64,000 bases of DNA from Flavobacteriaceae bacterium PS02334 (GTDB lineage: Bacteria > Bacteroidota > Bacteroidia > Flavobacteriales > Flavobacteriaceae). A model generated the notes under the pieces. It had not been told where the DNA came from and did not search any database. It was given only the letters and a program-made list of their open reading frames with translations. The translations under genes were made by a program, and so were the position numbers. Where the stretch lies: contig JASCOH010000004.1 in the NCBI GenBank assembly GCA_029959295.1, positions 331,762 to 395,761 of the forward strand. Direction: 5' to 3'. This document shows positions 971 through 19,774 of the stretch, piece by piece (the first letter of the stretch is position 1; each line of letters opens with the position of its first letter).

Positions 971-2323
971 TTAGTAAGCTTTTTCTTCGCCTTTTATAGC
1001 ATTATAAACAGTCAAGAAAATAATCTTGATATCTAAAAGCAATGACCAGTTTTCAAGATAGAAAATGTCAAATTTTACTCGATAAATAATGTCTTTATCG
1101 GTTTCCACTTCTCCACGGAAACCTTTAGTTTGGGCCAATCCAGTAATTCCAGGTTTGATAAAATGGCGAACCATGAATTTGTCGATTCTTCGCGCATACA
1201 TTTCGGTATGGCTGACCATGTGAGGCCTTGGACCCACAACTGACATGTCGCCTAAAAGCACATTGAAGAACTGCGGCAGCTCGTCAATACTGGTTTTTCT
1301 GATAAACTTTCCAACTCTTGTAATTCGCGGATCGTTTTTAGAAACTTGGTATAAATCAGCAATCTCATTCAATTCCATTGAACGGAATTTATAGCAGTAA
1401 AATTCTTTGTAGTTGAGTCCGTTTCTTTTCTGCTTGAAAAATATATTTCCCTTAGACTCTAATTTAATCAGAATTGCCAAAATTGGAGTCAGCCACGAAA
1501 GCAAGCCGATTATGACTAGAAGCGAAAATATAATGTCAAAGGATCTCTTGATAATTTTGTTCGAAATTTGGTCTAGAGGAATATTTCGCAATGAAATTAT
1601 CGGAATGTAATCATAATAGTCAAAAACTAAATTTCTGGCCAGAATTTCTTTATTGTCAGGAAGAAATTTCAAGATTTTCAGATTGTTATCTGTGAAGTCG
1701 ATAAATTTATTGACATCAGTATTGGCAAGGTCTGAAAGCGAACAATATATCTCGTCGATCTTGTTTTCCATTACAAAATTGAAACATTCGTCGATGCGTT
1801 CCTTCTTGTTTGTAGCCAGATTAAAAACCTTCTCAAGCTTGTATCCATAATCTGGATTTTCATTGAAAAAATCTTCCAGCTGTTCTACGCTTTTTCCGTT
1901 TCCAACAATAACTACTCTTCTAAAATTTCCTCCAAAAACTACCCTGAAACGTCTTAGGGCGTAATAAACGAAGAATTTTGCAAGCGCAATCAGCAGGATC
2001 GATAGCGACACAAACTGAATCATTTTTGAAGGCTCAGAAAACTTAAGATAGAAGCCAATGAATGCAAAATTGACAATAAGAAAAAACAGATATTGCTTTA
2101 ACGTATTTCCTAAGATTTCAATAACTTTTGTATATCTGTATACTTCATAAAAACCTATATTCCAAGCAATTATAATCCAAGAAATAGAGACAAACAGGTG
2201 ATATCCGATTTGATTCAAGGTTTCGGGCAATAGAAAATAGGCTAGAAGATTGATAATTATCAAATCTAGTGCATATGAAAATGGCCTGATGTAACCTGAA
2301 TATCTTCCTGTCCTATTTCGCAT
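971..2323 (-). CDS. Exopolysaccharide polyprenyl glycosylphosphotransferase (WcaJ-like)
   Basis: A 450-residue membrane protein that should start glycan synthesis by moving a sugar-1-phosphate onto undecaprenyl phosphate. There are four to five hydrophobic segments in the first about 125 residues, then a nucleotide-binding-like middle domain (VVIVGNGKS near 137), then the bacterial sugar transferase domain from about 258. That domain has the usual marks: a reentrant hydrophobic helix, FFKQKRNG, YKFRSM, RKTSIDELPQFFNVL and VGPRPH. Its start codon overlaps the stop of the upstream UDP-xylose synthase-like gene by one base, so translation is probably coupled. The sugar is not identified; glucose-1-P and galactose-1-P are the commonest in this family. 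Confidence 0.92.
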   Translation of the reverse strand: MRNRTGRYSGYIRPFSYALDLIIINLLAYFLLPETLNQIGYHLFVSISWIIIAWNIGFYEVYRYTKVIEILGNTLKQYLFFLIVNFAFIGFYLKFSEPSKMIQFVSLSILLIALAKFFVYYALRRFRVVFGGNFRRVVIVGNGKSVEQLEDFFNENPDYGYKLEKVFNLATNKKERIDECFNFVMENKIDEIYCSLSDLANTDVNKFIDFTDNNLKILKFLPDNKEILARNLVFDYYDYIPIISLRNIPLDQISNKIIKRSFDIIFSLLVIIGLLSWLTPILAILIKLESKGNIFFKQKRNGLNYKEFYCYKFRSMELNEIADLYQVSKNDPRITRVGKFIRKTSIDELPQFFNVLLGDMSVVGPRPHMVSHTEMYARRIDKFMVRHFIKPGITGLAQTKGFRGEVETDKDIIYRVKFDIFYLENWSLLLDIKIIFLTVYNAIKGEEKAY

Positions 2324-6725: not shown

Positions 6726-7895
6726 ATGAAAAATGTTTTGATTGTAAACCAATCGGCAGAATTGTACGGGGCGGATAAGGCAATTTTAGAATTAATCGAA
6801 AATTATCCTGCTGGTTATAATCCTATTGTTGTATTGCATGAAGAAGGTCCGTTAAAGGAACTACTTGAAAGAAAAGGTATTGAAGTAATAAAATGCTCAG
6901 TAATAAAAGTAAAAAGAGGGATTTTAAAGCCTGGATTTTTCTTAAAATTACCTTTTGAAGTATTTAAATCTTTCAGACTTATCCGAAAACAGCTCAATGG
7001 CAGAAAGATTGACTTAATACATTCTAATGCCACTTCTGTTTTTATTGGTGCCTTTTATGCTTCAACTTTTAGAATAAAACATTTGTGGCATGTTCATGAA
7101 ATTATTGAAAAACCAAAAAAAATTGCATACGCATATCCTCGAATAATTAATTTTTTTTCCTCGTTAGTTGTCTTTAATTCACATGCTACTGAAAAGCATT
7201 TTGTCACAATTTATCCCAAAATAAAACTAAAATCAGTAGTGATTTATAATGGAATGGAAAGGAAAATTAGTGAGATTTCTATTCTTGATAAGAACAAAAT
7301 CAGATCAGAAATTTTCCAGACTCATGATGCAAATATTGTCATAACCTTAATTGGCAGAATTAGCGCTATTAAAGGCCAGAGACTTTTATTACAGTCTTTT
7401 TCAGAATGTATAAGAACAAATAACAATATCCATTTGGTTTTCATCGGATCTTATGTTTTGGGGAAAAGCGAATATTATGACAGTTTAATTGCTGATATCG
7501 ATGCTTATAATTTAAAAAACAATGTTACTATTGTTGATTTTAAAGAGAATATTTGGCCATTTTACGATGCATCAGATATAATTATTATTCCTTCAACAGA
7601 ACCGGAATCTTTTGGCTTAGTCGCAATTGAAGGCATGCTTTCAAATAAACCTGTAATTGTATCAAAAATTGGGGCTTTAGAAGAAATTATTATTGATGGT
7701 GAAAGTGGATTGCTTTTTATTGCAAATGACAAAATTGATCTTAAAAACAAAATCAACTTGTTAATTCAAAATAGCGAACTAAGAACTAGATTGGCAAAAA
7801 ATGGATATGACAGAGTTGTTAAAAACTTCAGTACCTCAACTTTTGTAGAAAAGTTTAAAACAGCTTATGATTCTTTAGTTAATAATGACCTATAA
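6726..7895 (+). CDS. Glycosyltransferase family 4
   Basis: A 389-residue GT-B glycosyltransferase. The N-terminal acceptor domain begins with VNQSAELYGADKAI, typical of GT4 enzymes. The C-terminal donor domain has LIGRISAIKGQRLLLQSF near 217 and the E-x7-E region EPESFGLVAIEGM near 293, which contacts the nucleotide sugar. It lies 18 bases after the oxygenase gene, so the two are probably co-transcribed. Its end overlaps the end of the leftward gene at 7865-9124 by 31 bases. Donor and acceptor are unknown. Confidence 0.88.
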   Translation: MKNVLIVNQSAELYGADKAILELIENYPAGYNPIVVLHEEGPLKELLERKGIEVIKCSVIKVKRGILKPGFFLKLPFEVFKSFRLIRKQLNGRKIDLIHSNATSVFIGAFYASTFRIKHLWHVHEIIEKPKKIAYAYPRIINFFSSLVVFNSHATEKHFVTIYPKIKLKSVVIYNGMERKISEISILDKNKIRSEIFQTHDANIVITLIGRISAIKGQRLLLQSFSECIRTNNNIHLVFIGSYVLGKSEYYDSLIADIDAYNLKNNVTIVDFKENIWPFYDASDIIIIPSTEPESFGLVAIEGMLSNKPVIVSKIGALEEIIIDGESGLLFIANDKIDLKNKINLLIQNSELRTRLAKNGYDRVVKNFSTSTFVEKFKTAYDSLVNNDL

Positions 7896-9124
7896 GATTG
7901 AATCAGGTTTTCTCTGTAGGCATATAAGGCTCCTATTAGAATAGATTTGTTGTCAACTTTAAAATAAATTCCCATAAAAACCCAGTTAGACAAAATTAAA
8001 AAGAAAGCTGTCCCTACTAATATATAGTGAATATTATTAATGTCCTGATTACTTGTTTTTGGTTTATGTTTGATAAGTATTATAATAAAAATAATCAGCA
8101 ATATAACTCCAAAAATTCCTGATTTTAAGAATATTGTCATATAAGAATTATGCAATATTGGAACTTTCGAAATAAATTCTCCGTCATTAGTAAAAACCTG
8201 TCTTCCCAACTTTATAGTTGATCCACAGCCTTTTCCAAATAATATAGTCACAATCCCATCACTGGTAACTTGCTTAACGGTTAAAATATTTTCAAAAGAC
8301 CTATAGTTGTCATTAAAATCCTTCCAATCTTCCTTATTAATTTTTGTCTTAAATGGTTCTATTGGGGCAATTTTCACTTTATATAAAAAAGCCTCAAAAC
8401 CTTTACTGTTTCTATTTGGATTACTGATGTAAATTGCTGAATATGACAAAAGTACCAATATCGAAATAGAAGTCAATACAAGAAATGATTTCTTGGTCAA
8501 TTTGAGATATCCGGCCAAGGCAACACAAAGTATGAAAAATTGTATAATATTTATCCGTGCAAAATAAAGCAAACTGGAAATTGCTAATAATACTAAAAAT
8601 ATGAATTTTGTTCTCTTGGATATATCAATGTGTAATTTTTTTGAGAAGATTAAAAGTACAAGTGAGTATATTTCAAAATCATTAAAGTACCCTCCGACAT
8701 GCCGAAGTCCATGGATATTATAAATTTTTAAAAATAAAACTCCATAAAATAATTTTGCGAAATGAATTAATGCAAGTATTAGTCCGGCATAAACAAATGC
8801 TTTTAAAACATCAATGTTTTTCTTTTTAATAATTTGATATCCTAAAAGAAGCCCAATCAGTGGTTTAGACAGATAGGTGATGTCTCTAATCGTTGCATAC
8901 AACTGATTTGTATTAAACAATGATGAGATAATTCCGATCATTAAAATCGAAAATACTGATAGGCAAAGCCATAAAAATTGTGACGAATATTTGAATCTGA
9001 AACTAATAAGAAATATAAAAAGCCATGAAATGAATGTTAATTCAAAATTATTGAATGTCGATACTATTATTGCAAAACATAATAAGTAGGCATATAAAGA
9101 TTTTTTTTGACTAGTATTTTCCAT
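7865..9124 (-). CDS. Polytopic membrane protein, O-antigen polymerase/ligase-like
   Basis: A 419-residue protein with about ten to eleven hydrophobic segments and a large hydrophilic loop at roughly 240-335 holding GKGCGSTIKLG and then LHNSYMTIFLKSGIFGV. The G-x-G and the late H-N-S-Y preceding a membrane segment parallel Wzy/WaaL proteins. A role in polymerising or ligating the lipid-linked glycan outside the inner membrane is inferred. Its start overlaps the flippase stop by one base, so the two are tightly coupled, as Wzx-Wzy pairs often are. This makes it the better Wzy candidate of the two polymerase-like proteins here. Confidence 0.72.
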   Translation of the reverse strand: MENTSQKKSLYAYLLCFAIIVSTFNNFELTFISWLFIFLISFRFKYSSQFLWLCLSVFSILMIGIISSLFNTNQLYATIRDITYLSKPLIGLLLGYQIIKKKNIDVLKAFVYAGLILALIHFAKLFYGVLFLKIYNIHGLRHVGGYFNDFEIYSLVLLIFSKKLHIDISKRTKFIFLVLLAISSLLYFARINIIQFFILCVALAGYLKLTKKSFLVLTSISILVLLSYSAIYISNPNRNSKGFEAFLYKVKIAPIEPFKTKINKEDWKDFNDNYRSFENILTVKQVTSDGIVTILFGKGCGSTIKLGRQVFTNDGEFISKVPILHNSYMTIFLKSGIFGVILLIIFIIILIKHKPKTSNQDINNIHYILVGTAFFLILSNWVFMGIYFKVDNKSILIGALYAYRENLIQSYRSLLTKES

Positions 9125-10356
9125 TACCTGTTTTTATTTTTTACTAAAAGTGAATACAGTATCAAAGTTAGCAATTCAACAATTATCAGGGACAAAATTA
9201 ATCCTTTCAAGTTAAATGACATAAATAGTATTATCGATAAAATGCTTCCAAAGGCAAACATAAATAAAATGACCTTAAAATAGATTGCCTTAGATTTTAA
9301 AATAAAAACTAATTGCTCTAAACTCGCATTTAAGGAATATAAAAAAGGAATTAATAGTGCCAATCGGAGTAAGCTCACGAGCCCTCCTGAAAGTTCAGGC
9401 TCTATATTAAAATAATGGATGATTTCATTTGAGAATATGTATATTCCTGTTAGTATAGCAATTACAAAAATAATATTTATTGAATTAATTTTTTTCCAGT
9501 AACTCATACCGTCCTTTGCGCTTTCGCTAAAGTCATAGCACAACTTCGGGTAAAAAAACCTAAAAAAAACCTGCATATAAGTCCTGATTGGCGCTATAAT
9601 CTGCTCGACAACCCTGTACATGCCTACAATTGAAAACCCTCCTAAAAAGCTCAGAATTACTATTGGCGAATAATTTTTCAAAGCCAAAAAAACCTGTGAA
9701 GTAAAAAATTGGAAATCCTCTTTAAGGTAATTTTTTATTTGTAAAATGCTCACACTTTCTAAAATCGTATTTTCAACATAAATGCAGTAGTATAATCCTA
9801 TAATTGAAGATGTAATCAAACTCAATCCCCAAAAAAGATTGACAAAAACAAAATCAGATTTAGTCTTTACAAATAAAAAAACAAGCAATACATATAGAAG
9901 TTTATTTAAAATATTTAAAAATGAAATAGTTTTAAACTTATTTATACCTTGCAAAAACCATATTGGATTCAGATATTGTCCTATAAAAATTAAAAGAGTA
10001 AAAAGATATAGCGTTTTGTCATTTTGAGCAATTGGAGATATAAAAATCAATAACAATAAAATTGATAAAAGACACAAGATTAAAGGAAGTCTGCCTAAAT
10101 ATGCGATTGAAAAAATCTTGGATAATTTTTTTTTGTCATTCCTGTTAATTGAAACTTCTTTTACAAGAATTATATCGGCGCCATAATCTACGATAACATT
10201 AAGCAAAAAGGCAATAGTCAAAGCAAAAGTAATCTTCCCAAAGTTCTCATAGCCACTAACTCCAATAAGATATGGAGTCACAATTAGAGGAGCCACCAAA
10301 TTTATAGCTTGGCTGAAACCGTAAAATGGGAGGGAAAAATTTATTGATTTAAACAA
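9124..10356 (-). CDS. Oligosaccharide flippase (Wzx/MOP family)
   Basis: A 410-residue protein with about twelve predicted membrane segments and the N-terminal signature of polysaccharide transporters: L-P-F-Y-G-F-S-Q near 9-15, then VAPLIVTPYLIGVSGYENFGK. Residue K43 and the following FALTIAFLLNVIVDYGAD are typical of Wzx. It should flip undecaprenyl-pyrophosphate-linked repeat units to the periplasm. It is followed at once by a polymerase-like gene (one-base overlap) and preceded by a strong hairpin at 10376-10420, so this unit probably has its own promoter, which I could not identify. Confidence 0.86.
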   Translation of the reverse strand: MFKSINFSLPFYGFSQAINLVAPLIVTPYLIGVSGYENFGKITFALTIAFLLNVIVDYGADIILVKEVSINRNDKKKLSKIFSIAYLGRLPLILCLLSILLLLIFISPIAQNDKTLYLFTLLIFIGQYLNPIWFLQGINKFKTISFLNILNKLLYVLLVFLFVKTKSDFVFVNLFWGLSLITSSIIGLYYCIYVENTILESVSILQIKNYLKEDFQFFTSQVFLALKNYSPIVILSFLGGFSIVGMYRVVEQIIAPIRTYMQVFFRFFYPKLCYDFSESAKDGMSYWKKINSINIIFVIAILTGIYIFSNEIIHYFNIEPELSGGLVSLLRLALLIPFLYSLNASLEQLVFILKSKAIYFKVILFMFAFGSILSIILFMSFNLKGLILSLIIVELLTLILYSLLVKNKNR

Positions 10357-10495: not shown

Positions 10496-11038
10496 TTAAT
10501 GCGTAATCTTTTCTATTTCAGTTTTTAGAGCCAATTCTGATGAAGTTATAGGATCATATGATCCATTGCTTAAAATTGGAGTTACTGTGGAAGTAGCTTT
10601 GTCTAGTTTCATAGTAGCTTGTTCAACGAGCATGTAATTGAAAAAATCACTTCCATTTACTGAAAATTCTTTACCAAAGTAACTTAATTTGAACGAATTA
10701 ACTTTAATAGGAGATTGCTCTTTATTTGTTCCGAAATCTAATCTAATAAATTCAGGAATTACATTTTCTGGTAATTTAAAAATTATGTTTTGTGGAGATT
10801 TACTACCTTTGAATTCAACGAATAGAGATTTTTTTTCATCATAAGTACTATCGCCTTGCTCTCTATAATAAACCTGAAAACTATCATCTTTCAACACTGT
10901 TGCATTTAAAGTGATATTAAATAAATTATCTACTTTAGGTTCTTCAATTTTTTCTACTTTTTCTAATTTTTCTTCATTTTTACAAGAAACAACCGAAAGT
11001 AATGTTATAAATGCTAGAATTAATCTTTTTGTTTTCAT
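10496..11038 (-). CDS. Small uncharacterised lipoprotein
   Basis: A 180-residue protein with a lipoprotein signal: basic start, hydrophobic core and lipobox VVSC with Cys19, followed by a Glu/Lys-rich linker. The rest is beta-rich with no recognised domain. It sits between the GT-C transferase and the flippase but carries its own promoter (11058-11087) and its own terminator (10376-10420), so it is a self-contained unit inside the glycan locus. A role in glycan export or as an acceptor or anchor is only a guess. The same arrangement could equally mark an insertion. Confidence 0.75.
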   Translation of the reverse strand: MKTKRLILAFITLLSVVSCKNEEKLEKVEKIEEPKVDNLFNITLNATVLKDDSFQVYYREQGDSTYDEKKSLFVEFKGSKSPQNIIFKLPENVIPEFIRLDFGTNKEQSPIKVNSFKLSYFGKEFSVNGSDFFNYMLVEQATMKLDKATSTVTPILSNGSYDPITSSELALKTEIEKITH

Positions 11039-11092: not shown

Positions 11093-12934
11093 TTACTTGA
11101 TAATATCTATTTTTTTATCGCTATTAAAAACTCCTTTTTTCTTGTTTTTAAGATTCTCTATTTTTATCGCAATTGAATAGCTTCCTTTCGGTATGTTTTT
11201 TAAATCTGATTTTAGGCTAAATCCCGAATTATCAAGGTTAAAACCTTGTTTTTCAGCTTTGGTTATATCATTTCGACTATATGTAGTACTAGGTATTACT
11301 ATTGCTTTTTTATCCTTTATTAAAACTATTTCGATTTGTGAATCGTTGGCATCTATACCTTCAATAAAAGCCCATCCTTTCATGTTTATTTCATTTCCAT
11401 TATATCCAAATTCTTCTATCCAGCCTTTAATTTTATCTCCTTTGTTACTTTCAGGAAAATCAATTACATCAAGTTTATCGCTTTTTATCACATAATGTTT
11501 TGACCAAGAATCTAAACCTTCAAAGCTTTTATCAACAAAAAAAACTTTTTCGGAAAAAGCTGTCGCTCCCTCAGACAATTTAAATGGATTATTGTGAGCA
11601 TCTACATACCAGAATGATTTAATTTTTGTTGTGTCTGATTGCATTTCGTTCAAAAGTGATTCCAAAGAAGGTTTTTCTTCCAATTTAAACTTAGTCTCTG
11701 ATTCCAAAAAGTAGTCAAAAAAATATTTTAAACTCGTGTAAACATTTTCTCCGCTATTATTATTTTCTTTTACAAAATTTGAAGCTTCTCTAAATTGAGT
11801 CTTTATCGGATCTTTATAATATTTTTTTGCAAATACTAAATTTGAAAACATAAAAAAGCAAAGTGAAGTCAGTACAAAAATTTTTACGATTTTGTTGTTT
11901 ATTAAATTTATTCCAATTGCAGTTACTAACAAAAACACAGGTAATACGCTGACAAAATATCTTGAGATCATAATTGAAGTATCTGCATGTGATTTTAAAT
12001 AATTCACGCCTACAAGAACAAGTGTCCAAATTCCTAAAATGAGAAAACCAAAAACTTTTTTATTTTCGATTATTTGTTCGTATTTTATTTCTGTATCTTT
12101 TGATTTAAACAAATCAATTAAATAGTAGAAAAATATTGGCATAATAATAAAAATGGTTGCCTCTGAACCACCAATTAGCTCTTTAAATATAAGCGTTAGA
12201 GAATCGCTAGTTGGTGCTGGTATCCAGCCAGATTTAAATTCTAAAACCTTTTTTATTAGTCTATAATTAGGAATATAAAGAAGGAAAGCTAAAATACCTG
12301 AATAGAGTGAATACTTAAAAAATATTTTTCGTTCTGGTTTTTCTTGCAAAAATAAAAATAAAAGCAATATTAGATACTGCGAAAATATGTTGACTAAGCT
12401 GAAAAAATTTGAATTTAATAATACTGCGCAACTTAATCCATAAAACAATGCATTTCTTAAATTTACAAATCTTAAAAATTTTACTAAAAAATAAAAAGAT
12501 AAGATAATACTAAAAAAATAAAAAGAATATGGTCTTGCATCCTGAGAAGTAAATATGCAAAATTCACTAAAAGTAGTTAATATGGCGACTACAAGTCCAA
12601 CATTTTTATTGAACAATAATTTACCAAACTTATAGATCATTAAGACACTTAATATGCCGAAAATTGCCGAAAATGATCTGGCAACAATTGGAGTATATCC
12701 AAAAACAGAATGCATGATATTCAGAGTTATAAAATATATATAAGGAAAGCCTTCTTTTTTGTCAACTTCGAGAATTAATTCAGACAGACTCCAACTTGGA
12801 TTTGTTATTTTCATTGTATAAATTTCATCAAGCCAAATGCTTTGAAAATCTAAACGATATAATCGCAATGCGCTTGCAATTATTAATATTAAAACCAGTA
12901 GCTTATTCTCTTTTAAAATATTTATGTATTTCAT
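11093..12934 (-). CDS. GT-C family glycosyltransferase (GT39/GT83-like, ArnT-type)
   Basis: A 613-residue protein with about a dozen membrane segments over residues 10-375 and a soluble C-terminal part of about 230 residues outside the inner membrane. The first periplasmic loop has S-I-W-L-D-E-I-Y at about 32-39, the acidic motif of PMT/ArnT-type enzymes that use polyprenyl-phosphate sugars. It probably moves a sugar from undecaprenyl phosphate to an envelope acceptor. The ArnC/GtrB-like enzyme (16169) and SMR-like carrier (17100) a few genes upstream would make and flip that donor. The C-terminal domain is unrecognised. Order and direction suggest one leftward unit from about 17.5 kb to here. 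Confidence 0.82.
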   Translation of the reverse strand: MKYINILKENKLLVLILIIASALRLYRLDFQSIWLDEIYTMKITNPSWSLSELILEVDKKEGFPYIYFITLNIMHSVFGYTPIVARSFSAIFGILSVLMIYKFGKLLFNKNVGLVVAILTTFSEFCIFTSQDARPYSFYFFSIILSFYFLVKFLRFVNLRNALFYGLSCAVLLNSNFFSLVNIFSQYLILLLFLFLQEKPERKIFFKYSLYSGILAFLLYIPNYRLIKKVLEFKSGWIPAPTSDSLTLIFKELIGGSEATIFIIMPIFFYYLIDLFKSKDTEIKYEQIIENKKVFGFLILGIWTLVLVGVNYLKSHADTSIMISRYFVSVLPVFLLVTAIGINLINNKIVKIFVLTSLCFFMFSNLVFAKKYYKDPIKTQFREASNFVKENNNSGENVYTSLKYFFDYFLESETKFKLEEKPSLESLLNEMQSDTTKIKSFWYVDAHNNPFKLSEGATAFSEKVFFVDKSFEGLDSWSKHYVIKSDKLDVIDFPESNKGDKIKGWIEEFGYNGNEINMKGWAFIEGIDANDSQIEIVLIKDKKAIVIPSTTYSRNDITKAEKQGFNLDNSGFSLKSDLKNIPKGSYSIAIKIENLKNKKKGVFNSDKKIDIIK

Positions 12935-12936
12935 AT

Positions 12937-13035
12937 TTATTTAATAAATTTCAATTGTGATAATTTGTAATCTAAAGAACCTTTATTCGATTTAAGCAAA
13001 TACTTTTTGAAAAAATTATTCCATTGATTTTGCAT
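12937..13035 (-). CDS. Possible 32-residue peptide (doubtful)
   Basis: A short frame between the methyltransferase and GT-C genes, ending two bases before the GT-C start. It would encode a Lys/Asn/Gln-rich peptide starting MQNQWNNFFKKYLL with no membrane segment or motif. Its composition is what AT-rich spacer gives by chance, and no promoter or ribosome-binding site was seen. It is listed because it fills the spacer almost exactly; it may be a remnant or no gene at all. Confidence 0.15.
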   Translation of the reverse strand: MQNQWNNFFKKYLLKSNKGSLDYKLSQLKFIK

Positions 13036-13056
13036 AATAGAAGAGATTTTTTTGAA

Positions 13057-13884
13057 CTATTTTTTCTTTGCAATTATAAAACAGCTACTTCCAAAAGAAA
13101 TTTTGTTTCCTTTTTTAACTTTATCAATTTCTTTATTCCAAAAATAATTTAAAATCTTATCTAGCATTCCGCTTTTTACCGTATGTTCGTTCTTATGCTT
13201 ACTAAAATCACTTGAATTCTTGTTAAATCCTAATTTGCTTGGCAAAGTCCTAGAAAGAAATATTGCAAAAGGCAAAAGTGAAAACAAATAGCTAGAATAT
13301 TCAATTTCAAAACCTAAACATTTCAAAATTTTTTCCATGTCTTTCACCTTGTATCTTCTGTAATGACCAGCATCGACATCTTCATTTGACCATAATCCTT
13401 GATATGCAGGAACAGTGATAAATATCAGGCCGTTCATACTAAGATAACTATGAATCATTTTTAAGAATTCTACATCATTTTCAATATGTTCCACAACATC
13501 GAAAAGGCCAATGTTTGGTATAGAATTTTCTTTAAAGTAGGCTTCTTGCAATGTGGAACAAACCACATTTTTAAGCCCTCTTCTTTTTGCGTTTAAGCAA
13601 CCATTGACCCCAGGTTCCACGAGAACAGTTTCAATTCCAACATTTTGCAAAGATTTTGCTTGGTAGCCATTACCACCTCCAATATCAAAAAAAAGATTTT
13701 CTTTTGAATATTTTTTAAAAGCTTCAATTATGCATTTATTTCTATGATTAAACCAAAAACTATTTTCTTCTATTTTGAAAAAGTCATCATTTCCTTTCTC
13801 TGGATATGAAATAGAAGTTTTTTTCTTTGAAAAATATATTCCATCTTTTAAAATTAATTCTGAAGTAAACAATTCTATATTCAT
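13057..13884 (-). CDS. Class I SAM-dependent methyltransferase
   Basis: A 275-residue enzyme with a Rossmann SAM site: FFDIGGGNGYQAKSL near 60-75 (motif I), an acidic end of strand 2 (VLVEPG), and FDVVEHIENDVEFLKMIHS, typical of Methyltransf_11/23 proteins. GLIFITVPAYQGLWSNED follows as motif III. The C-terminal 70 residues hold a short hydrophobic stretch. Its start overlaps the aminotransferase stop by four bases. In that context O-methylation of the amino sugar or the growing glycan is likely, as in the anthrose pathway, but the target is not shown. Confidence 0.85.
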   Translation of the reverse strand: MNIELFTSELILKDGIYFSKKKTSISYPEKGNDDFFKIEENSFWFNHRNKCIIEAFKKYSKENLFFDIGGGNGYQAKSLQNVGIETVLVEPGVNGCLNAKRRGLKNVVCSTLQEAYFKENSIPNIGLFDVVEHIENDVEFLKMIHSYLSMNGLIFITVPAYQGLWSNEDVDAGHYRRYKVKDMEKILKCLGFEIEYSSYLFSLLPFAIFLSRTLPSKLGFNKNSSDFSKHKNEHTVKSGMLDKILNYFWNKEIDKVKKGNKISFGSSCFIIAKKK

Positions 13885-15008
13885 TCATTAATAAGTTTAT
13901 CTATTACTATGTTCGTATCCAATTCAAAATAAAGTGGCAAACGCAACAATTTATCTGTGAAAAAATCAGTTTCTAGCAAATGTCTTCCGTCATGCTTGTC
14001 AGTATAAAAAGGACTTTTATGAAGACTCAGATAATGGAAAACAGCCATAATATCATTGCGCTTCAATTTTTCTATAATTTCATTTCTTTGATCAAGGCTT
14101 TCACAAATCAAATAAAACATGTGTCCGTTATTTGACGAGTACTCTGGAAGTATCGGCAATTTGATATTATTTTTAACTGCCCAACCAGAAAGGGTGTTAA
14201 AATAATTCTCCCAATGCTGTTTTCTTTTGCTTTGAATTTTTTCAATATTTTCAAGTTGCGCCCATAAAAAAGCTGCAATGATTTCTGAGGGCAAAAATGA
14301 GCTTCCGATGTCAACCCAGCCATATTTATCAACCTCACCTCTAAAAAAAGAGGATCTATTTGTTCCCTTTTCCCAGATTATTTCAGCTCTGTCAATAAAT
14401 TGCTCGTCATTAATCACCAGCATTCCTCCTTCGCCAGAAATAATATTTTTAGTTTCATGAAAAGAAAACGCAGCTAGGTGCCCAATAGAGCCCAGTGCTT
14501 TTTTAATACCATCCTTTCCTGTAAAATAACTGTCAATCGCTTGAGCAGCATCTTCCACAACAAACAAATTATATTTTTTTGCAATGTCCATGATAACATC
14601 CATGTTACAGGCGACTCCCGCATAATGAACAATTACAATTGCTTTTGTTTTGGGCGTTATTAGAGCCTCAATTAAATTTTCATCCATATTAGGATGATCT
14701 TTCCGAGAATCTGCAAATACAATTTTTGCGCCCCGAAGCACAAATGCATTTGAAGTTGATACAAAAGTATAAGATGGCATGATTACTTCATCTCCATCTT
14801 TTATATTAATTAAAATGGCTGCCATTTCAAGTGCATCAGTACATGAAGTTGTCAACAAGCATTTTTTAAATCCAAAGTTTTGCTCAAAAAAAGTTTGGCA
14901 AAGTTTGGTATACTTTCCATTACCTGAAATTTTTCCTGATTTTACAGCATCTTCAATATATTCTGTCTCTTTACCAGTTAAATAAGGTTTATTGAATGGG
15001 ATTATCAT
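13881..15008 (-). CDS. wecE: dTDP-4-amino-4,6-dideoxygalactose transaminase (WecE/RffA-like)
   Basis: A 375-residue PLP enzyme of the DegT/DnrJ/EryC1 family. Close agreement with E. coli WecE runs along the whole length: IPFNKPYLTGKE at the start, the segment around VIMPSYTFVSTSNAFVLRGA, VHYAGVACNMD, VVEDAAQ (D153 contacts the PLP ring nitrogen), FSFHETKN with the Schiff-base K187, EKGTNRSSFFRG and VDKYGWVDIGSS. The known reaction turns dTDP-4-keto-6-deoxyglucose and glutamate into dTDP-4-amino-4,6-dideoxy-D-galactose. The keto sugar needs RmlB, which is not in this window, while RmlA is at 18917-19774. The upstream GNAT-MaoC fusion is the likely next enzyme, acylating the new amino group. 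Confidence 0.9.
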   Translation of the reverse strand: MIIPFNKPYLTGKETEYIEDAVKSGKISGNGKYTKLCQTFFEQNFGFKKCLLTTSCTDALEMAAILINIKDGDEVIMPSYTFVSTSNAFVLRGAKIVFADSRKDHPNMDENLIEALITPKTKAIVIVHYAGVACNMDVIMDIAKKYNLFVVEDAAQAIDSYFTGKDGIKKALGSIGHLAAFSFHETKNIISGEGGMLVINDEQFIDRAEIIWEKGTNRSSFFRGEVDKYGWVDIGSSFLPSEIIAAFLWAQLENIEKIQSKRKQHWENYFNTLSGWAVKNNIKLPILPEYSSNNGHMFYLICESLDQRNEIIEKLKRNDIMAVFHYLSLHKSPFYTDKHDGRHLLETDFFTDKLLRLPLYFELDTNIVIDKLINE

Positions 15009-15034
15009 ATCTATATTTTAAAAATAATTTATAA

Positions 15035-16156
15035 CTATCTTTTAATGAGGTCATTATAAGACAATAGACATAAACTATCTTCCTTGTCATAAATTTTTAC
15101 TAGACAAATATAAATCTTTTTTTCATCATCAAAGTAAGGAACCGATATTGTCACTTTATAATTTTCATTAGGATATAATGGTTTTAGAAACTTATAGTAA
15201 TAAGCCATAAATAATGTCCCATTACCAGGAAATTCAGTTCCAAAATATTTAGACATTTCTGCATTTGCAATCAAGCCATGAGCTATTCTTTGAGAAAAAC
15301 CAAGATTTTGCGCAAATGAATTATCAAAATGTACAGGATTCATATCTCCACTCAGCACTCCATAATTTTTAATATCATCATCTGTGATAAAAATTTCAAA
15401 ATTTATTTTTGGAAATATTGAATAATTCAAAAGACTATTGATGTGAATCGTAGCAAATGATTTTAACATAAAAAAACCTTCTCTACTCCATACTTTTTGA
15501 ACAGCATAATTCTGAACTTGTGTAGAAACTTTCATTTTTTTTAAACCTAAATCCTTCATGAAACTTTGAGTATATCTTATGATATCAGAATATACACCAC
15601 CGCCAGATGCTTCAGGCAAAACGCCATACAAAACACCTTCAGCTTCACCATTTTCAATAGAACAGGTTGCAAAACCAATAGTTGTATTTCCTCTATTAAC
15701 TAAAAAAACATGCTTATTTTCTTTTTCAATAAAGTCAATCACCCATTCTTTATAACCTTCAAGTATATTTTTTTTATCAATATAAGGATTAGAATTGTAA
15801 TGATTTGTATAACCCGGAAAAATAGCATCTACTAGTGTGCCCATCAAAATTTCATCAGATTTTGTAGCGACAACAAAATTTAAATCATTATTTCTTAATT
15901 CTTTCGGTTCATAATCATCAAAATTTACATAGTAATAAACTAAAGTATCCGTTTGATAATAGGAAAATCCCAAAGTATTCAATTTCGAAATTTGAGAAAG
16001 ACTTTCAGATGGAATTCTTAAAATTGTTAGGTCAATATCGTTATTGACAATAGACTGGCTAAGTTCTTTAATATTAAGAGATTCCATAAAAGCCCGTTGC
16101 ACATTCATCTTGAATCTAACGCTTTCTTTTTCAGATTTTACTATTGTACTTTCCAT
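15035..16156 (-). CDS. GNAT acyltransferase fused to a MaoC/PhaJ-type (R)-enoyl-CoA hydratase
   Basis: A 373-residue two-domain protein. Residues about 85-235 form a GNAT fold resembling WecD/RffC, the acyltransferase that follows WecE; the acyl-CoA loop is around PEASGGGVYSD (181-191). Residues about 255-373 are a hot-dog domain closely resembling PhaJ: LSGDMNPVHFD has D271 and H276 at the spacing of the catalytic pair, followed by RIAHGLI (H293). The inference is that the hydratase half makes (R)-3-hydroxyacyl-CoA and the GNAT half transfers it to the 4-amino group. Enterobacterial WecD is a single domain, so the fusion is unusual. The frame is continuous. It lies 26 bases before wecE in transcription order. 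Confidence 0.85.
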   Translation of the reverse strand: MESTIVKSEKESVRFKMNVQRAFMESLNIKELSQSIVNNDIDLTILRIPSESLSQISKLNTLGFSYYQTDTLVYYYVNFDDYEPKELRNNDLNFVVATKSDEILMGTLVDAIFPGYTNHYNSNPYIDKKNILEGYKEWVIDFIEKENKHVFLVNRGNTTIGFATCSIENGEAEGVLYGVLPEASGGGVYSDIIRYTQSFMKDLGLKKMKVSTQVQNYAVQKVWSREGFFMLKSFATIHINSLLNYSIFPKINFEIFITDDDIKNYGVLSGDMNPVHFDNSFAQNLGFSQRIAHGLIANAEMSKYFGTEFPGNGTLFMAYYYKFLKPLYPNENYKVTISVPYFDDEKKIYICLVKIYDKEDSLCLLSYNDLIKR

Positions 16157-16168
16157 TTTATTTATTGA

Positions 16169-17095
16169 TTAATTTAAGATTTGGTCTATTATAAAAGATT
16201 TTCTGCCTTTTGTTTGGTCAAATATTTTTCCTATGTAAATTCCCACAATTCCTATTGTTGTTATTATTATACCTGATAAAAACCAAATTGAAACCATGAT
16301 TGAACTATATCCAAGTATGAGTATTTGTCCCTCAAAATATTTTACTATAGTTGCGATTCCAATAATAAAAGACAATAAGGACATTGTCATTCCAAATTTC
16401 ACAAATAATTTTAAAGGTTTATTCGAAAATGAAATAATAGTATTAAATGCAAGGCTCATAAGTTTAGCAAAACTATAAGATGAGCTTCCTGAATCTCTAT
16501 GTGCATGTTCAACTTCAATTGAAATGGTTTTGAACCCAACCCAATTCACAAATAATGGAAATGATTTGATATAATCATTCATTCCAATTACTTCGGTGAT
16601 TACTTTTATATTATAGATGCCAAAATTTGCAATAGTATTATCAAATTTTGTTTCTGTCAAATAGCTATATATAACAGAAAAAAATTTAGATGATGCTTTT
16701 TTAAAAAAACCATCTCGTCGGTTTTTTCTGCTCGCCAAAACTACATCGAATCCTTCTTTAGTTTTGTCAAATAATTTTATAATTTCTTTTGGTTGATCTT
16801 GTAAGTCACAGTCCATGATAACAATCCATTCACCCTTTGCTTGACTTAAACCGGCAATTATTGCAGGATGCTGCCCAAAATTTTTACTCAACCTAATACT
16901 TTTTACATCTTTATATTTAAAAGAAAGCATCTTCATTTTTTCCCATGAATTGTCAGGACTTCGATCGTCTACTAAGATAATTTCATAAGAAACTTGCATA
17001 GCATTCATAGTCTTCTTTATTTCAAAAACTAATTTCTCAAGTATTAATTCAGCTTTATAAACCGGACTAACAATTGAAATAAGAGGTTTTTCCAT
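16169..17095 (-). CDS. Polyprenyl-phosphate sugar transferase (ArnC/GtrB-like GT2)
   Basis: A 308-residue DPM1-like GT2. The catalytic domain starts PLISIVSPVYKAE, has ILVDDRSPDNSW, RLSKNFGQHPAIIAGL and the metal site MDCDLQDQPKEI near 94-105. Two membrane helices follow at about 225-250 and 263-290, the layout of ArnC and GtrB, which load a single sugar on undecaprenyl phosphate at the cytoplasmic face. It is four bases from the SMR-like carrier gene and 12 from the GNAT-MaoC gene. The sugar is inferred, not shown, to be the acylated 4-amino-4,6-dideoxyhexose. Confidence 0.85.
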   Translation of the reverse strand: MEKPLISIVSPVYKAELILEKLVFEIKKTMNAMQVSYEIILVDDRSPDNSWEKMKMLSFKYKDVKSIRLSKNFGQHPAIIAGLSQAKGEWIVIMDCDLQDQPKEIIKLFDKTKEGFDVVLASRKNRRDGFFKKASSKFFSVIYSYLTETKFDNTIANFGIYNIKVITEVIGMNDYIKSFPLFVNWVGFKTISIEVEHAHRDSGSSSYSFAKLMSLAFNTIISFSNKPLKLFVKFGMTMSLLSFIIGIATIVKYFEGQILILGYSSIMVSIWFLSGIIITTIGIVGIYIGKIFDQTKGRKSFIIDQILN

Positions 17096-17099
17096 AGTT

Positions 17100-17468
17100 T
17101 TAAAATTTTACTGTTATGATGGTTCCCAAAACTACTAATAATAAACCGATTAATTTTCCAATACTAAATGCTTCGCCCAAAAATAAAATTCCAATGCAAA
17201 AAACAATTGCTGGAGCTAAACTCATAAATGGATAAGCTGTTGTTATTTCAAACTTTGTCATTGCACCAATCCAAAATAAGGAAGCAATAAAAGCAGATAA
17301 AAATCCAGAAAATATAAACGGATCGAAAACAAGTTTAATAAGAAACAAGATTTTTTCAAATGTTTCGTTTGGTAAAATAACTTTTAAGCTGGAAAGTCTC
17401 CATTTTAAAATAATCTGCCCATAAACAGTAAAAAATAATGTGCCAGCAATGTAAAAATACGGGTTCAT
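17100..17468 (-). CDS. Small four-helix EamA/SMR-like carrier, candidate undecaprenyl-phosphate-sugar flippase
   Basis: A 122-residue protein of four hydrophobic helices (about 3-22, 45-68, 73-93, 100-121). It resembles the EmrE/ArnE/ArnF size class: a Gly-Gln in helix 1, FWIGAMTKFEITTAYPFMSLAP in the middle and GIVLG-like ends. ArnE/ArnF flip undecaprenyl-phosphate aminoarabinose. Next to an ArnC-like transferase that is the most natural role here. A drug exporter of the SMR family is the alternative, less likely because the Glu that EmrE needs in helix 1 is not evident. Confidence 0.75.
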   Translation of the reverse strand: MNPYFYIAGTLFFTVYGQIILKWRLSSLKVILPNETFEKILFLIKLVFDPFIFSGFLSAFIASLFWIGAMTKFEITTAYPFMSLAPAIVFCIGILFLGEAFSIGKLIGLLLVVLGTIITVKF

Positions 17469-17501: not shown

Positions 17502-18368
17502 TTAGAATCTTGCAATGCTATTTTCCCAACTATTTATTTCGATTATAAAGTTCTTCTTAATTTTATTTTTATCTAAAACGCTATAACCCGGCCTCTTTGC
17601 CGGAGTTGGATAGCTTGAAGTAGGAATTGGTTTTAAATCAATCTCTATTCCATTAATCTCAAATATTTTCTTTGCGAAATCATACCAACTGCACTGGCCT
17701 TCATTACTGAAATGATAAACACCATAAAGTGATTCCAAATCTGAAGTTTGTCCTTTCAGACTTTCAGTTTTTTCTATAATTTTTACAACTACTTCTGCTA
17801 AATCGACTGCGTTTGTTGGTGTTCCGATTTGATCACTAACTACGCTTAAAGAATCTTTTTCTCTCCCCAAACGAATCATCGTTTTCATAAAATTATTTAC
17901 AAATTGAGAATAAAGCCATGAAGTTCTAATGATAAAATACTTCTCCAAAATTACCTGAATTTCTTTCTCTCCGTCTAATTTTGTCTGTCCATACACACTT
18001 GTCGGATTAGTCAGATCTTCTTCTGTATAAGGCGTAATTTTATTCCCGTCAAAAACAAAATCCGTAGAAATGTGAATCAATGTTGTGTCAAATTCCTTGC
18101 AAGTTTCTGCTAAGTTTTTTGCTCCTTCAACGTTAATCAGATGTGCTTTTTCTGTTTCGCTTTCCGCTTTATCAACAGCCGTATAAGCCGCGGCGTTTAT
18201 GCAATAATCTGGTTTCAAGTCAGAAAATATGGCAATACAATTTGCTTTGTCGGCAATATTTAATTCTGAAGAAGAAAGAAAATGAAACTGAATTTCAGGA
18301 TATTTAGGCGCAATAAACTGCAAAGATTGCCCCAATTGCCCTGAACCTCCTGCAACTAAAACTACCAT
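17502..18368 (-). CDS. rfbD: dTDP-4-dehydrorhamnose reductase
   Basis: A 288-residue SDR (RmlD) that reduces dTDP-4-keto-L-rhamnose to dTDP-L-rhamnose with NAD(P)H. Seen: VAGGSGQLGQSL at the N-terminus, NAAAYTAVDKAE, HISTDFVFDG, SVYGQTKLDGE with the catalytic Tyr and Lys, and RTSWLYS. The C-terminal part ends with a PGYSVLDKNKI segment usual in RmlD. The start overlaps the end of rfbC by seven bases. Together with rfbC and rfbA it gives three of the four steps to dTDP-L-rhamnose. Confidence 0.94.
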   Translation of the reverse strand: MVVLVAGGSGQLGQSLQFIAPKYPEIQFHFLSSSELNIADKANCIAIFSDLKPDYCINAAAYTAVDKAESETEKAHLINVEGAKNLAETCKEFDTTLIHISTDFVFDGNKITPYTEEDLTNPTSVYGQTKLDGEKEIQVILEKYFIIRTSWLYSQFVNNFMKTMIRLGREKDSLSVVSDQIGTPTNAVDLAEVVVKIIEKTESLKGQTSDLESLYGVYHFSNEGQCSWYDFAKKIFEINGIEIDLKPIPTSSYPTPAKRPGYSVLDKNKIKKNFIIEINSWENSIARF

Positions 18369-18913
18369 GCTTTTTTTGCGTTTTCAAGGGTTGGAAGAAT
18401 CTGGTCTTTTTCAGAAATGATTAATTCGCTTTCCGGAAGTTTCCAATCGATATTTAATGTTTTGTCATTGTACAAAACACCGCCTTCAGATTCTTTATTA
18501 TAAAAATTATCGCATTTGTAAAAGAAAGTAGCCGTTTCGCTCAAAACTATAAAGCCATGTGCAAAACCTCTTGGAACAAAAAATTGGGTTTGATTTTCTG
18601 CCGAGAGAAGCACTGCAACATGTTTTCCATATGTCTTAGATTCTGGGCGAATATCAACCGCAACGTCTAAAACCTCGCCGTGAAGCACGCGAACAAGCTT
18701 TGCCTGTGCATTTTCACCAGTCTGGTAATGCAAACCTCTTAAAACGCCTTTTTTAGAAAAAGACTGATTGTCTTGAACAAAATGCGTTTCTTTTCCAATG
18801 GCTTCCTGAAAAGTTCTTTCATTAAAACTTTCCATGAAATATCCTCTTTCGTCACCAATAATTTTTGGCTCAATAATATAACAACCTTCTAGTTCTGTAG
18901 ATATAAAATTCAT
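18362..18913 (-). CDS. rfbC: dTDP-4-dehydrorhamnose 3,5-epimerase
   Basis: A 183-residue cupin enzyme (RmlC) that epimerises C3 and C5 of dTDP-4-keto-6-deoxyglucose. Seen: EPKIIGDERGYFMES, FVQDNQSFSKKGVLRGLHYQ with the catalytic His, KLVRVLHGEVLDVAVDIR, and FFVPRGFAHGF. The length is normal for the family. It lies four bases after rfbA and overlaps rfbD. Confidence 0.95.
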   Translation of the reverse strand: MNFISTELEGCYIIEPKIIGDERGYFMESFNERTFQEAIGKETHFVQDNQSFSKKGVLRGLHYQTGENAQAKLVRVLHGEVLDVAVDIRPESKTYGKHVAVLLSAENQTQFFVPRGFAHGFIVLSETATFFYKCDNFYNKESEGGVLYNDKTLNIDWKLPESELIISEKDQILPTLENAKKAW

Positions 18914-18916
18914 GTC

Positions 18917-19774
18917 TTATATAATGCTTAATAAATGCTTTCCATAACCGCTTTTCAATAACGGTTGTGCAATTTTTTGCAATTGCGATGCGTCGATAAA
19001 GCCCATTTTGTAAGCAGCTTCTTCAATCGCTCCAATTTTTAATCCTTGGCGTTCTTCAATTACCTGGACAAACTGTGAAGCTTGCATTAGCGACTGAAAA
19101 GTTCCGGTGTCAAGCCAAGCCGTTCCTCTGTCAAGAATGCTTACTTTTAGCTTTCCTCTTTTTAAATATTCTTTATTTATATCTGTAATTTCAAGCTCAC
19201 CTCTATGACTTGGCTTGATGTTTTTTGCAATTTCCACTACGTCGTTATCATAGAAATAAATTCCTGGAACGGCATAATTTGATTTTGGAACTTCTGGTTT
19301 TTCTTCAATCGAAAGTACATTGCCGCTTTCATCAAAATCTACAACACCATATCTTTCTGGGTCGTGAACGTGATAAGCATAAATAATTCCTCCATCTGGA
19401 TTGTTATTCGCCAAAAGCAATTCAGACAAACCCGTTCCGTAGAAAATATTATCACCTAAAACTAATGCGACTTTGTCGTCACCAATGAAATCTTTTCCAA
19501 TAATAAAAGCTTCTGCCAAACCATTCGGATTCTCTTGAACGGCATATTCAAAACGGCATCCTAAACTTGTTCCGTCGCCCAAAAGCTGACGAAAAAGTGG
19601 CAAATCGTGAGGTGTCGAGATTATCAAAATTTCTCTGATTCCAGACCACATGAGTGTTGACAACGGATAATAAATCATCGGTTTGTCATAAATTGGCATT
19701 AATTGTTTGCTCACTGCAAGTGTCAATGGATGGAGTCTTGTTCCAGATCCTCCGGCTAATATTATTCCTTTCAT
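18917..19774 (-). CDS. rfbA: Glucose-1-phosphate thymidylyltransferase
   Basis: A 285-residue nucleotidyltransferase (RmlA) that makes dTDP-glucose from dTTP and glucose-1-phosphate. The N-terminal [18 protein letters not shown] is the nucleotide loop; [27 protein letters not shown] with the metal Asp, and TAWLDTGT are also typical. It supplies dTDP-sugar for both rhamnose and the WecE branch. rmlB, the next enzyme, is missing from the window. Confidence 0.95.

Follow-up and report, generated by a model that had tools for sequence, protein, structure and literature searches.

An exchangeable acyltransferase slot in a putative extracytoplasmic glycosylation cassette for N-acylated 4-amino-4,6-dideoxyhexoses in Flavobacteriaceae

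Which sugar is made, and where is it attached, by a run of six genes in Flavobacteriaceae bacterium PS02334 that places an aminotransferase and an acyltransferase among membrane-associated glycosylation enzymes? The run lies in a window of 64,000 nucleotides, the whole stretch of DNA that was analysed (assembly GCA_029959295.1, contig JASCOH010000004.1, positions 331,762 to 395,761). Judged from sequence, the cassette that it represents is probably an extracytoplasmic glycosylation system of the three-component type, dedicated to an N-acylated 4-amino-4,6-dideoxyhexose. The identity of the aminotransferase WecE, gene order, exchange of genes in the acyltransferase slot and co-inheritance were examined in the sequences themselves; from these we infer the acyl group, lipid loading, flipping, the acceptor and methylation. 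All six open reading frames (ORFs) are on the minus strand at 11093-17468 of the window, and a sequence-only reading that had described this leftward run was correct in both the ORFs and the families that it named:

17100..17468, minus strand: small membrane protein of the SMR/EamA type, a candidate for flipping a lipid-linked sugar (EamA 35.3 bits, above the Pfam cut-off)
16169..17095, minus strand: GT2, putative polyprenyl-phosphate sugar synthase of the ArnC/GtrB/PgfS kind (Pfam 92.7 bits)
15035..16156, minus strand: putative N-acyltransferase, a GNAT-MaoC fusion of 373 amino acids in one frame (GNAT 30.6 bits, MaoC 63 bits)
13881..15008, minus strand: WecE, dTDP-4-amino-4,6-dideoxygalactose transaminase (NF008687, 565.7 bits against a cut-off of 375)
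13057..13884, minus strand: S-adenosylmethionine methyltransferase, an optional cassette member (Methyltransf_23 40.7 bits)
11093..12934, minus strand: GT-C glycosyltransferase (PMT_2) whose C-terminal domain is soluble (PMT_2 37.3 bits, above cut-off)

Along the run the ORFs are separated by gaps of 4, 12 and 26 bp and then overlap by 4 bp; the GT-C gene stands 122 bp apart.

The acyltransferase slot and what it is inherited with

WecE (E<=1e-100) occurs in 63 of 249 genomes of the genus and 29 of 299 of the family, the source genome being counted in both. We fetched and ORF-called 95 WecE neighbourhoods, two of which (L031 and L114) are from the same genome, leaving 94 distinct. Four fetched loci stand outside the counts, having no WecE ORF above 350 bits in their ORF tables: L124, L152 and L195 through the overlap filter of the ORF caller, and L167 through broken frames. 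An ArnC-like GT2 gene lies within three genes upstream of WecE in 52 of the 95 rows (51 of 94 distinct), and an acyl- or formyltransferase lies between the two, or is fused, in 50 of the 51 distinct GT2-WecE cassettes. With classes named from one representative apiece, the slot holds a GNAT protein in 18 rows, a hexapeptide enzyme of 264 amino acids in 11, a NeuD/VioB hexapeptide enzyme in 9, a long formyltransferase in 6 and a short one in 2, the GNAT-MaoC fusion in 3 (2 distinct) and none in 3. GNAT and WecE share a single frame of 596 amino acids in one genome (L102:7484-9274), possibly as a natural fusion or through a stop lost by sequencing error; L112 has an intact-looking GNAT in the slot that was left out by the ORF filter, and L150, which lies where a contig ends, carries methyltransferase and SMR genes in place of the acyltransferase. 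The cassette exists in part of the Flavobacteriaceae, and its acyltransferase slot is exchangeable. Outside the counts, L195 has a distant GT2 (29%) and L124 none. In L167 (G446, a genome 76% complete), a GT2-GNAT-WecE-GT-C series stands in broken frames, through either real decay or assembly error.

Within the genus, where at most nine GT2 candidates were scored per genome and counts are consequently too low, the GT2 was found at E<=1e-60 in at least 34 of 249 genomes. Of these 34, 33 also have WecE, against 30 of the remaining 215 (Fisher p 1.7e-22), and in 29 of the 34 the two genes share a contig and are at most 5 kb apart, the exceptions being G442, G423, G437, G377 and G307. In 44 of the 52 GT2-type rows, against 19 of the 43 others, a protein with at least six predicted helices is encoded no more than two genes away. 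Those in the GT-C slot come from several families, with PMT_2, PMT and GtrII each represented above cut-off. The expectation that the same families would recur in the same order in other Flavobacteriaceae was therefore borne out for GT2-acyltransferase-WecE and largely for an adjoining membrane protein, but not for the six-gene set with the fusion, of which the genomes searched yielded no second example. All six slots, ordered as in the window, occur together in one genome (G353, L110), whose GNAT is unfused. A fixed six-gene unit was rejected, as the fusion is rare and the SMR and methyltransferase genes are optional.

Which genes of the cassette are inherited together was assessed on the GT2 and WecE trees for 48 acyl-labelled rows (L102, L112 and L150 being unlabelled), with 300 shuffles of the labels. 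Acyl type changes 9 times on the GT2 tree (shuffle mean 25.0, minimum 18) and 22 times on the WecE tree (mean 24.9). In a subset of 39 rows from which two deep clades and the fusions had been removed, 4 changes against a mean of 14.6 were counted on the GT2 tree (0 of 300 shuffles as low) and 13 against 14.7 on the WecE tree (55 of 300). The type of the downstream membrane protein (38 rows), in turn, changes only 8 times on the WecE tree (shuffle mean 20.7). Within the GNAT class (18 rows), the partial rank correlation of acyltransferase with GT2 given WecE is 0.71, and with WecE given GT2 it is 0.13; distance correlations in the class of 264 amino acids (11 rows) likewise lean toward GT2. In our reading of these trees, GT2 and the acyltransferase would be inherited together as a donor module because the GT2 must recognise the N-acyl group, and WecE, with its one common product, would go with the acceptor side.

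A simpler explanation, which we consider somewhat unlikely, is that this co-inheritance reflects the positions of recombination breaks, with the conserved rmlD and wecE serving as arms, and not substrate recognition by the GT2. It gains from the order of the genes, GT2 and acyltransferase being followed by WecE and GT-C, and from the fact that WecE tracks its downstream gene much as GT2 tracks the acyltransferase gene. However, the acyltransferase gene, although in most cases immediately flanked by GT2 and WecE, tracks mainly GT2, and the 39-row subset, freed of its deep clades, agrees.

The predicted sugar, the fusion protein and the host locus

The window's WecE exceeds the cut-offs of two WecE equivalog models (besides NF008687, TIGR02379 with 526.8 bits against 434.85), is 55% identical to E. 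coli WecE and has 4piw/4zah as its best solved relative (422 bits), which supports the dTDP-4-amino-6-deoxy sugar of the sequence-only reading. The GT2 is 29% identical to E. coli ArnC and 30% to GtrB; its solved relatives are sll0501 (170 bits, residues 6-305) and ArnC (152 bits, residues 6-307), and it has two predicted membrane helices, C-terminal by sequence reading. It stays below the equivalog cut-offs of ArnC (176.4 bits against 529) and PgfS (203.4 against 500), as does the SMR/EamA protein below that of ArnF (34.9 against 99). Its PMT_2 score above cut-off marks the last gene of the run as a predicted GT-C transferase, whose first loop carries LDE, as does its counterpart in F. urocaniciphilum. 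The earlier proposal of an N-acyltransferase beside WecE, joined with a polyprenyl-phosphate-type GT2 and a GT-C enzyme, agrees with these family assignments.

The pathway would run as follows. RmlA, together with RmlB, which is encoded above its cut-off elsewhere in the source genome, would supply dTDP-4-keto-6-deoxyglucose, and WecE would aminate it to dTDP-4-amino-4,6-dideoxygalactose (dTDP-Fuc4N). The MaoC domain would hydrate a short enoyl-CoA, likeliest crotonyl-CoA, to an (R)-3-hydroxyacyl-CoA, from which the GNAT domain would transfer the 3-hydroxyacyl group to N4. The GT2 would recognise the N-acyl sugar and load it onto undecaprenyl phosphate, the SMR protein, where present, may flip the lipid-linked sugar, and the GT-C enzyme would attach the sugar, possibly O-methylated, as a side group on an envelope polysaccharide of the Wzx/Wzy type. 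In relatives, other N-acyl- or formyltransferases would stand in the acyltransferase's place, with the GT2 tending to change along with them.

Two members appear to be accessory. Among the five genes upstream, an SMR gene is present in 9 of 52 GT2-type WecE rows and in 0 of 43 others (Fisher p 0.0036), with L144 and L158 having one farther away; among 19 cassette genomes, an SMR protein was found in 6 (two of them as fragmentary matches), one of which also has GtrA. The methyltransferase is present in 4 of 51 distinct cassettes (the window, L031, L108 and L110), all with a window-type GT-C, and its close homologues among the fetched loci are confined to L031/L114, L108 and L110. Since two of its four cassettes have no fusion, it does not belong to a fusion set as had been supposed.

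The fusion comprises a GNAT domain (residues ~1-245), which contains the stretch HYNSNPYID, and a MaoC domain (residues ~250-373). It is unlikely to be an assembly error, because the same fusion recurs in F. urocaniciphilum DSM 27078 (73% identity), where the genes run rmlA-rmlC-rmlD-GT2-fusion-WecE-methyltransferase-GT-C-lipoprotein-Wzx-Wzy; no SMR gene was found at that locus, nor any match genome-wide at E<=0.001. Full-length relatives are restricted to the source genome among the 299 family and the 395 phylum genomes, and to 2 of the 249 genus genomes, its own included, the second being F. urocaniciphilum. A scan of genome contigs returned 41 loci, of which one is the F. urocaniciphilum fusion and 40 match essentially the MaoC part. 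None of 144 plasmid records matched by the fusion spans 80% of it; the best plasmid match of its GNAT domain (30%) is on an alphaproteobacterial plasmid of Pseudorhodobacter turbinis, in a set with GtrA, GT2, a membrane protein of 508 amino acids, rffA and GNAT. That membrane protein has no Pfam family and is called GT-C-like by position and hydrophobicity alone. The GNAT domain stays below two WecD equivalog cut-offs (43.1 bits against 219 over residues 8-229; 26.4 against 195.1). In the MaoC domain, D271 and H276 (D-x4-H) are invariant in 16 of 16 aligned sequences, and we take this Asp/His pair to be the catalytic residues of MaoC/PhaJ (R)-hydratases.

The direction of the MaoC reaction bears on the predicted acyl group. 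The domain might instead be a dehydratase, or merely present an acyl-CoA, which would leave an unsaturated or plain acetyl group on the nitrogen. Hydratases are reversible, HadB-like dehydratase models match the domain too, and no MaoC was found in the other fetched GNAT cassettes. Nevertheless, we hold this alternative to be unlikely: two of the best solved relatives, the top match among them, are annotated as (R)-specific enoyl-CoA hydratases, and both an N-(3-hydroxy-1-oxobutyl) amino sugar (PMC3927599) and, for Flavobacterium, a 3,5-dihydroxyhexanoyl amino sugar (PMC6519341) have been published. The partnership of GNAT and MaoC is supported independently by two operons for pseudaminic acid, in which pseH overlaps a stand-alone maoC (L211:7461-8406 and L221:7268-8213) and PseB, PseC, PseH and PseI exceed their equivalog cut-offs; this suggests an N-3-hydroxyacyl pseudaminic acid in those Flavobacteriaceae.

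Other maoC-like genes were also observed. In five genus genomes (L213, L214, L216, L217 and L219) they occur close to groups of genes for aminotransferases, hexapeptide transferases and Wzx-like proteins; the neighbours in L213 were searched by family and the others were assigned by gene length and order, the ORF table of L214 having no aminotransferase. In genome G735 (L209/L210), a GNAT distantly akin to that of the fusion adjoins genes whose sequences read like those of a NeuD-like protein, a CoA ligase of the PaaK kind and an enzyme that cleaves beta-keto acids, which may indicate another unusual acyl donor.

The six-gene run sits inside a longer one, with rmlA, rmlC and rmlD upstream and lipoprotein, Wzx-like and Wzy-like genes downstream:

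18917..19774, minus strand: rmlA, glucose-1-phosphate thymidylyltransferase, for dTDP-glucose supply (TIGR01207 469.3 bits, cut-off 360.65)
18362..18913, minus strand: rmlC, dTDP-rhamnose branch (TIGR01221 249.6 bits, cut-off 155.75)
17502..18368, minus strand: rmlD, dTDP-rhamnose branch (TIGR01214 314 bits, cut-off 224.05)
10496..11038, minus strand: small lipoprotein of 180 amino acids with a lipobox cysteine (no family match)
9124..10356, minus strand: Wzx-like flippase of the host polysaccharide locus (Polysacc_synt 91.5 bits)
7865..9124, minus strand: Wzy-like multi-spanning protein of the host polysaccharide locus, a hydrophobic ORF adjoining Wzx, without a family match and assigned by position
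971..2323, minus strand: WcaJ-type initiating phosphoglycosyltransferase of the same region (TIGR03023 415.1 bits, just above the cut-off of 410.75)

Lipid A, which the sequence-only reading had offered as a possible acceptor, finds no support here and was rejected on this context of a WcaJ-type initiating enzyme and Wzx/Wzy-like genes. The lipoprotein family has 20 rows in the analysed loci, including the window and one duplicate. Fifteen of them directly adjoin a cassette GT-C-type gene (same-strand PMT_2 or opposite-strand GtrII-type), three of the remainder are second tandem copies, and two (L111 and L122) are located elsewhere. The family may bind the acceptor; by profile comparison, the lipoprotein at 10496 is unrelated to two GT-C clusters.

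Contrary evidence and known systems

A number of results weigh against a dedicated cassette built around a donor module. On the trees, the 22 changes of acyl type along WecE were matched by 14 of 300 shuffles, a slight acyl signal, and the membrane-protein type follows the GT2 tree as well, if more weakly than WecE (15 changes; mean 20.8, minimum 16; 0 of 300 as low). In the NeuD class (9 rows) the acyltransferase correlates as strongly with WecE as with GT2; among the 6 rows with a long formyltransferase, neither correlation is significant. The nearest neighbours of both GT2s that accompany a fusion are GT2s that partner the hexapeptide enzyme of 264 amino acids, and not GNAT-paired ones; perhaps the two acyltransferases make similar products, or the fusion took the place of the hexapeptide gene. 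The GNAT domain of the fusion is only 16% identical to WecD. Where it carries Trp, a Tyr that is presumably the general acid stands in E. coli WecD and in all 25 stand-alone GNATs of the fetched loci. Decay of the GNAT domain was rejected as an explanation, Trp being common to both fusions and the Pseudorhodobacter GNAT, with Leu in the more distant G735 relative.

The membrane components raise further objections. Of the eight cassette membrane proteins scanned, three (L134, L104 and L101) reach the cut-off of PMT, PMT_2 or GtrII; L173 is DUF6044, L133 and L186 match PMT_2 below cut-off, L137 has a sub-threshold DUF7657 match and L111 no family. Compared by profile with the window's GT-C, the other clusters in the GT-C slot show weak or no similarity, the best values being 77% for a lone protein and then 31% and 14%, each for a cluster. 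A cluster of 16 membrane proteins has a GGDE-like first loop and a representative with a sub-threshold DUF7657 match, and the membrane proteins that stand between acyltransferase and WecE in L105 and L154 match no family. No SMR or GtrA match was found genome-wide in 13 of the 19 cassette genomes (G387, G449, G474, G370, G511, G394, G545, G496, G321, G311, G379, G445 and G341), so that the SMR carrier is not the fixed member it had been taken for. In published systems, several pairs may share a single flippase, and Wzx-type proteins may substitute for it (PMC8035078). Finally, the GT2 of L152 adjoins WecE with no acyltransferase between, and 43 of the 94 WecE loci lack an ArnC-like GT2 within three genes.

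These last loci, one of whose two scanned membrane proteins is Wzx-like (L126) and the other without a family (L181), as well as the rmlA, rmlC and rmlD genes directly upstream and the about equal closeness of the GT2 to GtrB and ArnC, would suit a scheme in which GT2 and GT-C serve dTDP-rhamnose or UDP-glucose while WecE and the acyltransferase feed a cytoplasmic glycosyltransferase of a Wzx/Wzy pathway, but we judge it quite improbable given the proximity of GT2 to WecE in 29 of 34 genus genomes and a GT2 tree that tracks acyl type.

How does a dedicated cassette for an N-acylated amino sugar compare with known systems? Three-component glycosylation, represented by GtrABC, a Citrobacter pentofuranose system (PMC11127046) and Gram-positive systems (PMC8035078), likewise combines a polyprenyl-phosphate sugar synthase, a small flippase (here in some genomes) and a GT-C enzyme. 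The donors named for such systems are glucose, galactose, GlcNAc (N-acetylglucosamine) and pentofuranose, with Ara4N (4-amino-4-deoxyarabinose) for ArnT, and the excerpts of both papers make no mention of an N-acylated dTDP-amino sugar donor (PMC11127046, PMC8035078). The genomic context suggests that the likeness extends to a polysaccharide acceptor. The cassette would differ by just such a donor, by its built-in biosynthetic genes and exchangeable acyltransferase, and by a flippase that is often not identifiable.

In the Arn pathway of E. coli (ArnABCDEFT), the 4-amino sugar is formylated before GT2 loading, carried by an SMR-type protein and transferred by a GT-C enzyme. A 4-amino sugar that is N-acylated before loading, a GT-C transferase and, in some genomes, an SMR-type carrier would be common to both. 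In contrast to the UDP-pentose made through ArnB, the cassette would use a dTDP-6-deoxyhexose made by WecE, its acyl groups are varied, its proteins stay below the ArnC and ArnF equivalog cut-offs, and its acceptor is probably a polysaccharide and not lipid A. The predicted design is three-component extracytoplasmic glycosylation with Arn-like N-acylation before loading, and we therefore regard the cassette as a variation on known three-component glycosylation.

The enterobacterial common antigen genes rffC(wecD)-wecE of E. coli have the same acyltransferase-WecE order and predicted dTDP-Fuc4N intermediate, but are followed by wzxE, wecF and wzyE, with no annotated ArnC-like GT2 or GT-C. The anthrose operon, which the sequence-only reading had drawn on as an analogy, also keeps aminotransferase, acyltransferase and hydratase together, and we know of no lipid-linked donor or GT-C set in it. 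The ant operon comprises the four genes antA-antD, without a methyltransferase, CheR being the only methyltransferase in the main text of PMC10050317. The viosamine island of Pseudomonas syringae, with its 4-amino-4,6-dideoxyhexose, N-3-hydroxybutyryl group and O-methyl group, fits the predicted chemistry better (PMC3927599). According to the same source, the island differs by making its acyl group with ketosynthase III (KS III), reductase and acyl carrier protein (ACP) genes, by a transferase, VioT, that uses the dTDP sugar, and by Qui4N (4-amino-4,6-dideoxyglucose) instead of Fuc4N. No KS III, ketoreductase or ACP was found among the 16 window genes searched by family, the rest of the genome lying outside that search. 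Exchangeable acyl groups on a 4-amino sugar have already been proposed for the O-polysaccharide loci of F. psychrophilum, there with a UDP sugar, PglD-type enzymes and a standard pathway (PMC6519341). A cassette of the kind described here was not found in the PMC literature searched, a search that mostly leaves out subscription journals.

Implications for surface glycans

More tentatively, and as a proposal that we find plausible while stopping short of favouring it, Flavobacteriaceae may swap the donor module, an undecaprenyl-phosphate sugar synthase with its matching N-acyl- or formyltransferase, between conserved arms formed by rmlD (upstream in many loci) and wecE (downstream). One dTDP-Fuc4N would then give rise to many N-acyl epitopes, attached outside the membrane by a separate GT-C module; the fusion would be a plug-in that brings its own acyl-donor enzyme, and many systems would use an unrecognised flippase.

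If this is true, it would describe extracytoplasmic glycosylation with N-acyl 4-amino-4,6-dideoxyhexoses in which the acyl chemistry is an exchangeable part. It would also define a concrete search for the missing flippase and offer natural sets of GT2s matched to differing N-acyl groups, as well as a way of obtaining N-acyl sugar donors to be used in glycoengineering. A testable rule would follow, by which whichever gene stands between GT2 and wecE tells what N-acyl group a surface glycan of Flavobacteriaceae carries, and these bacteria could alter their surface chemistry by swapping the enzymes that add the acyl group.

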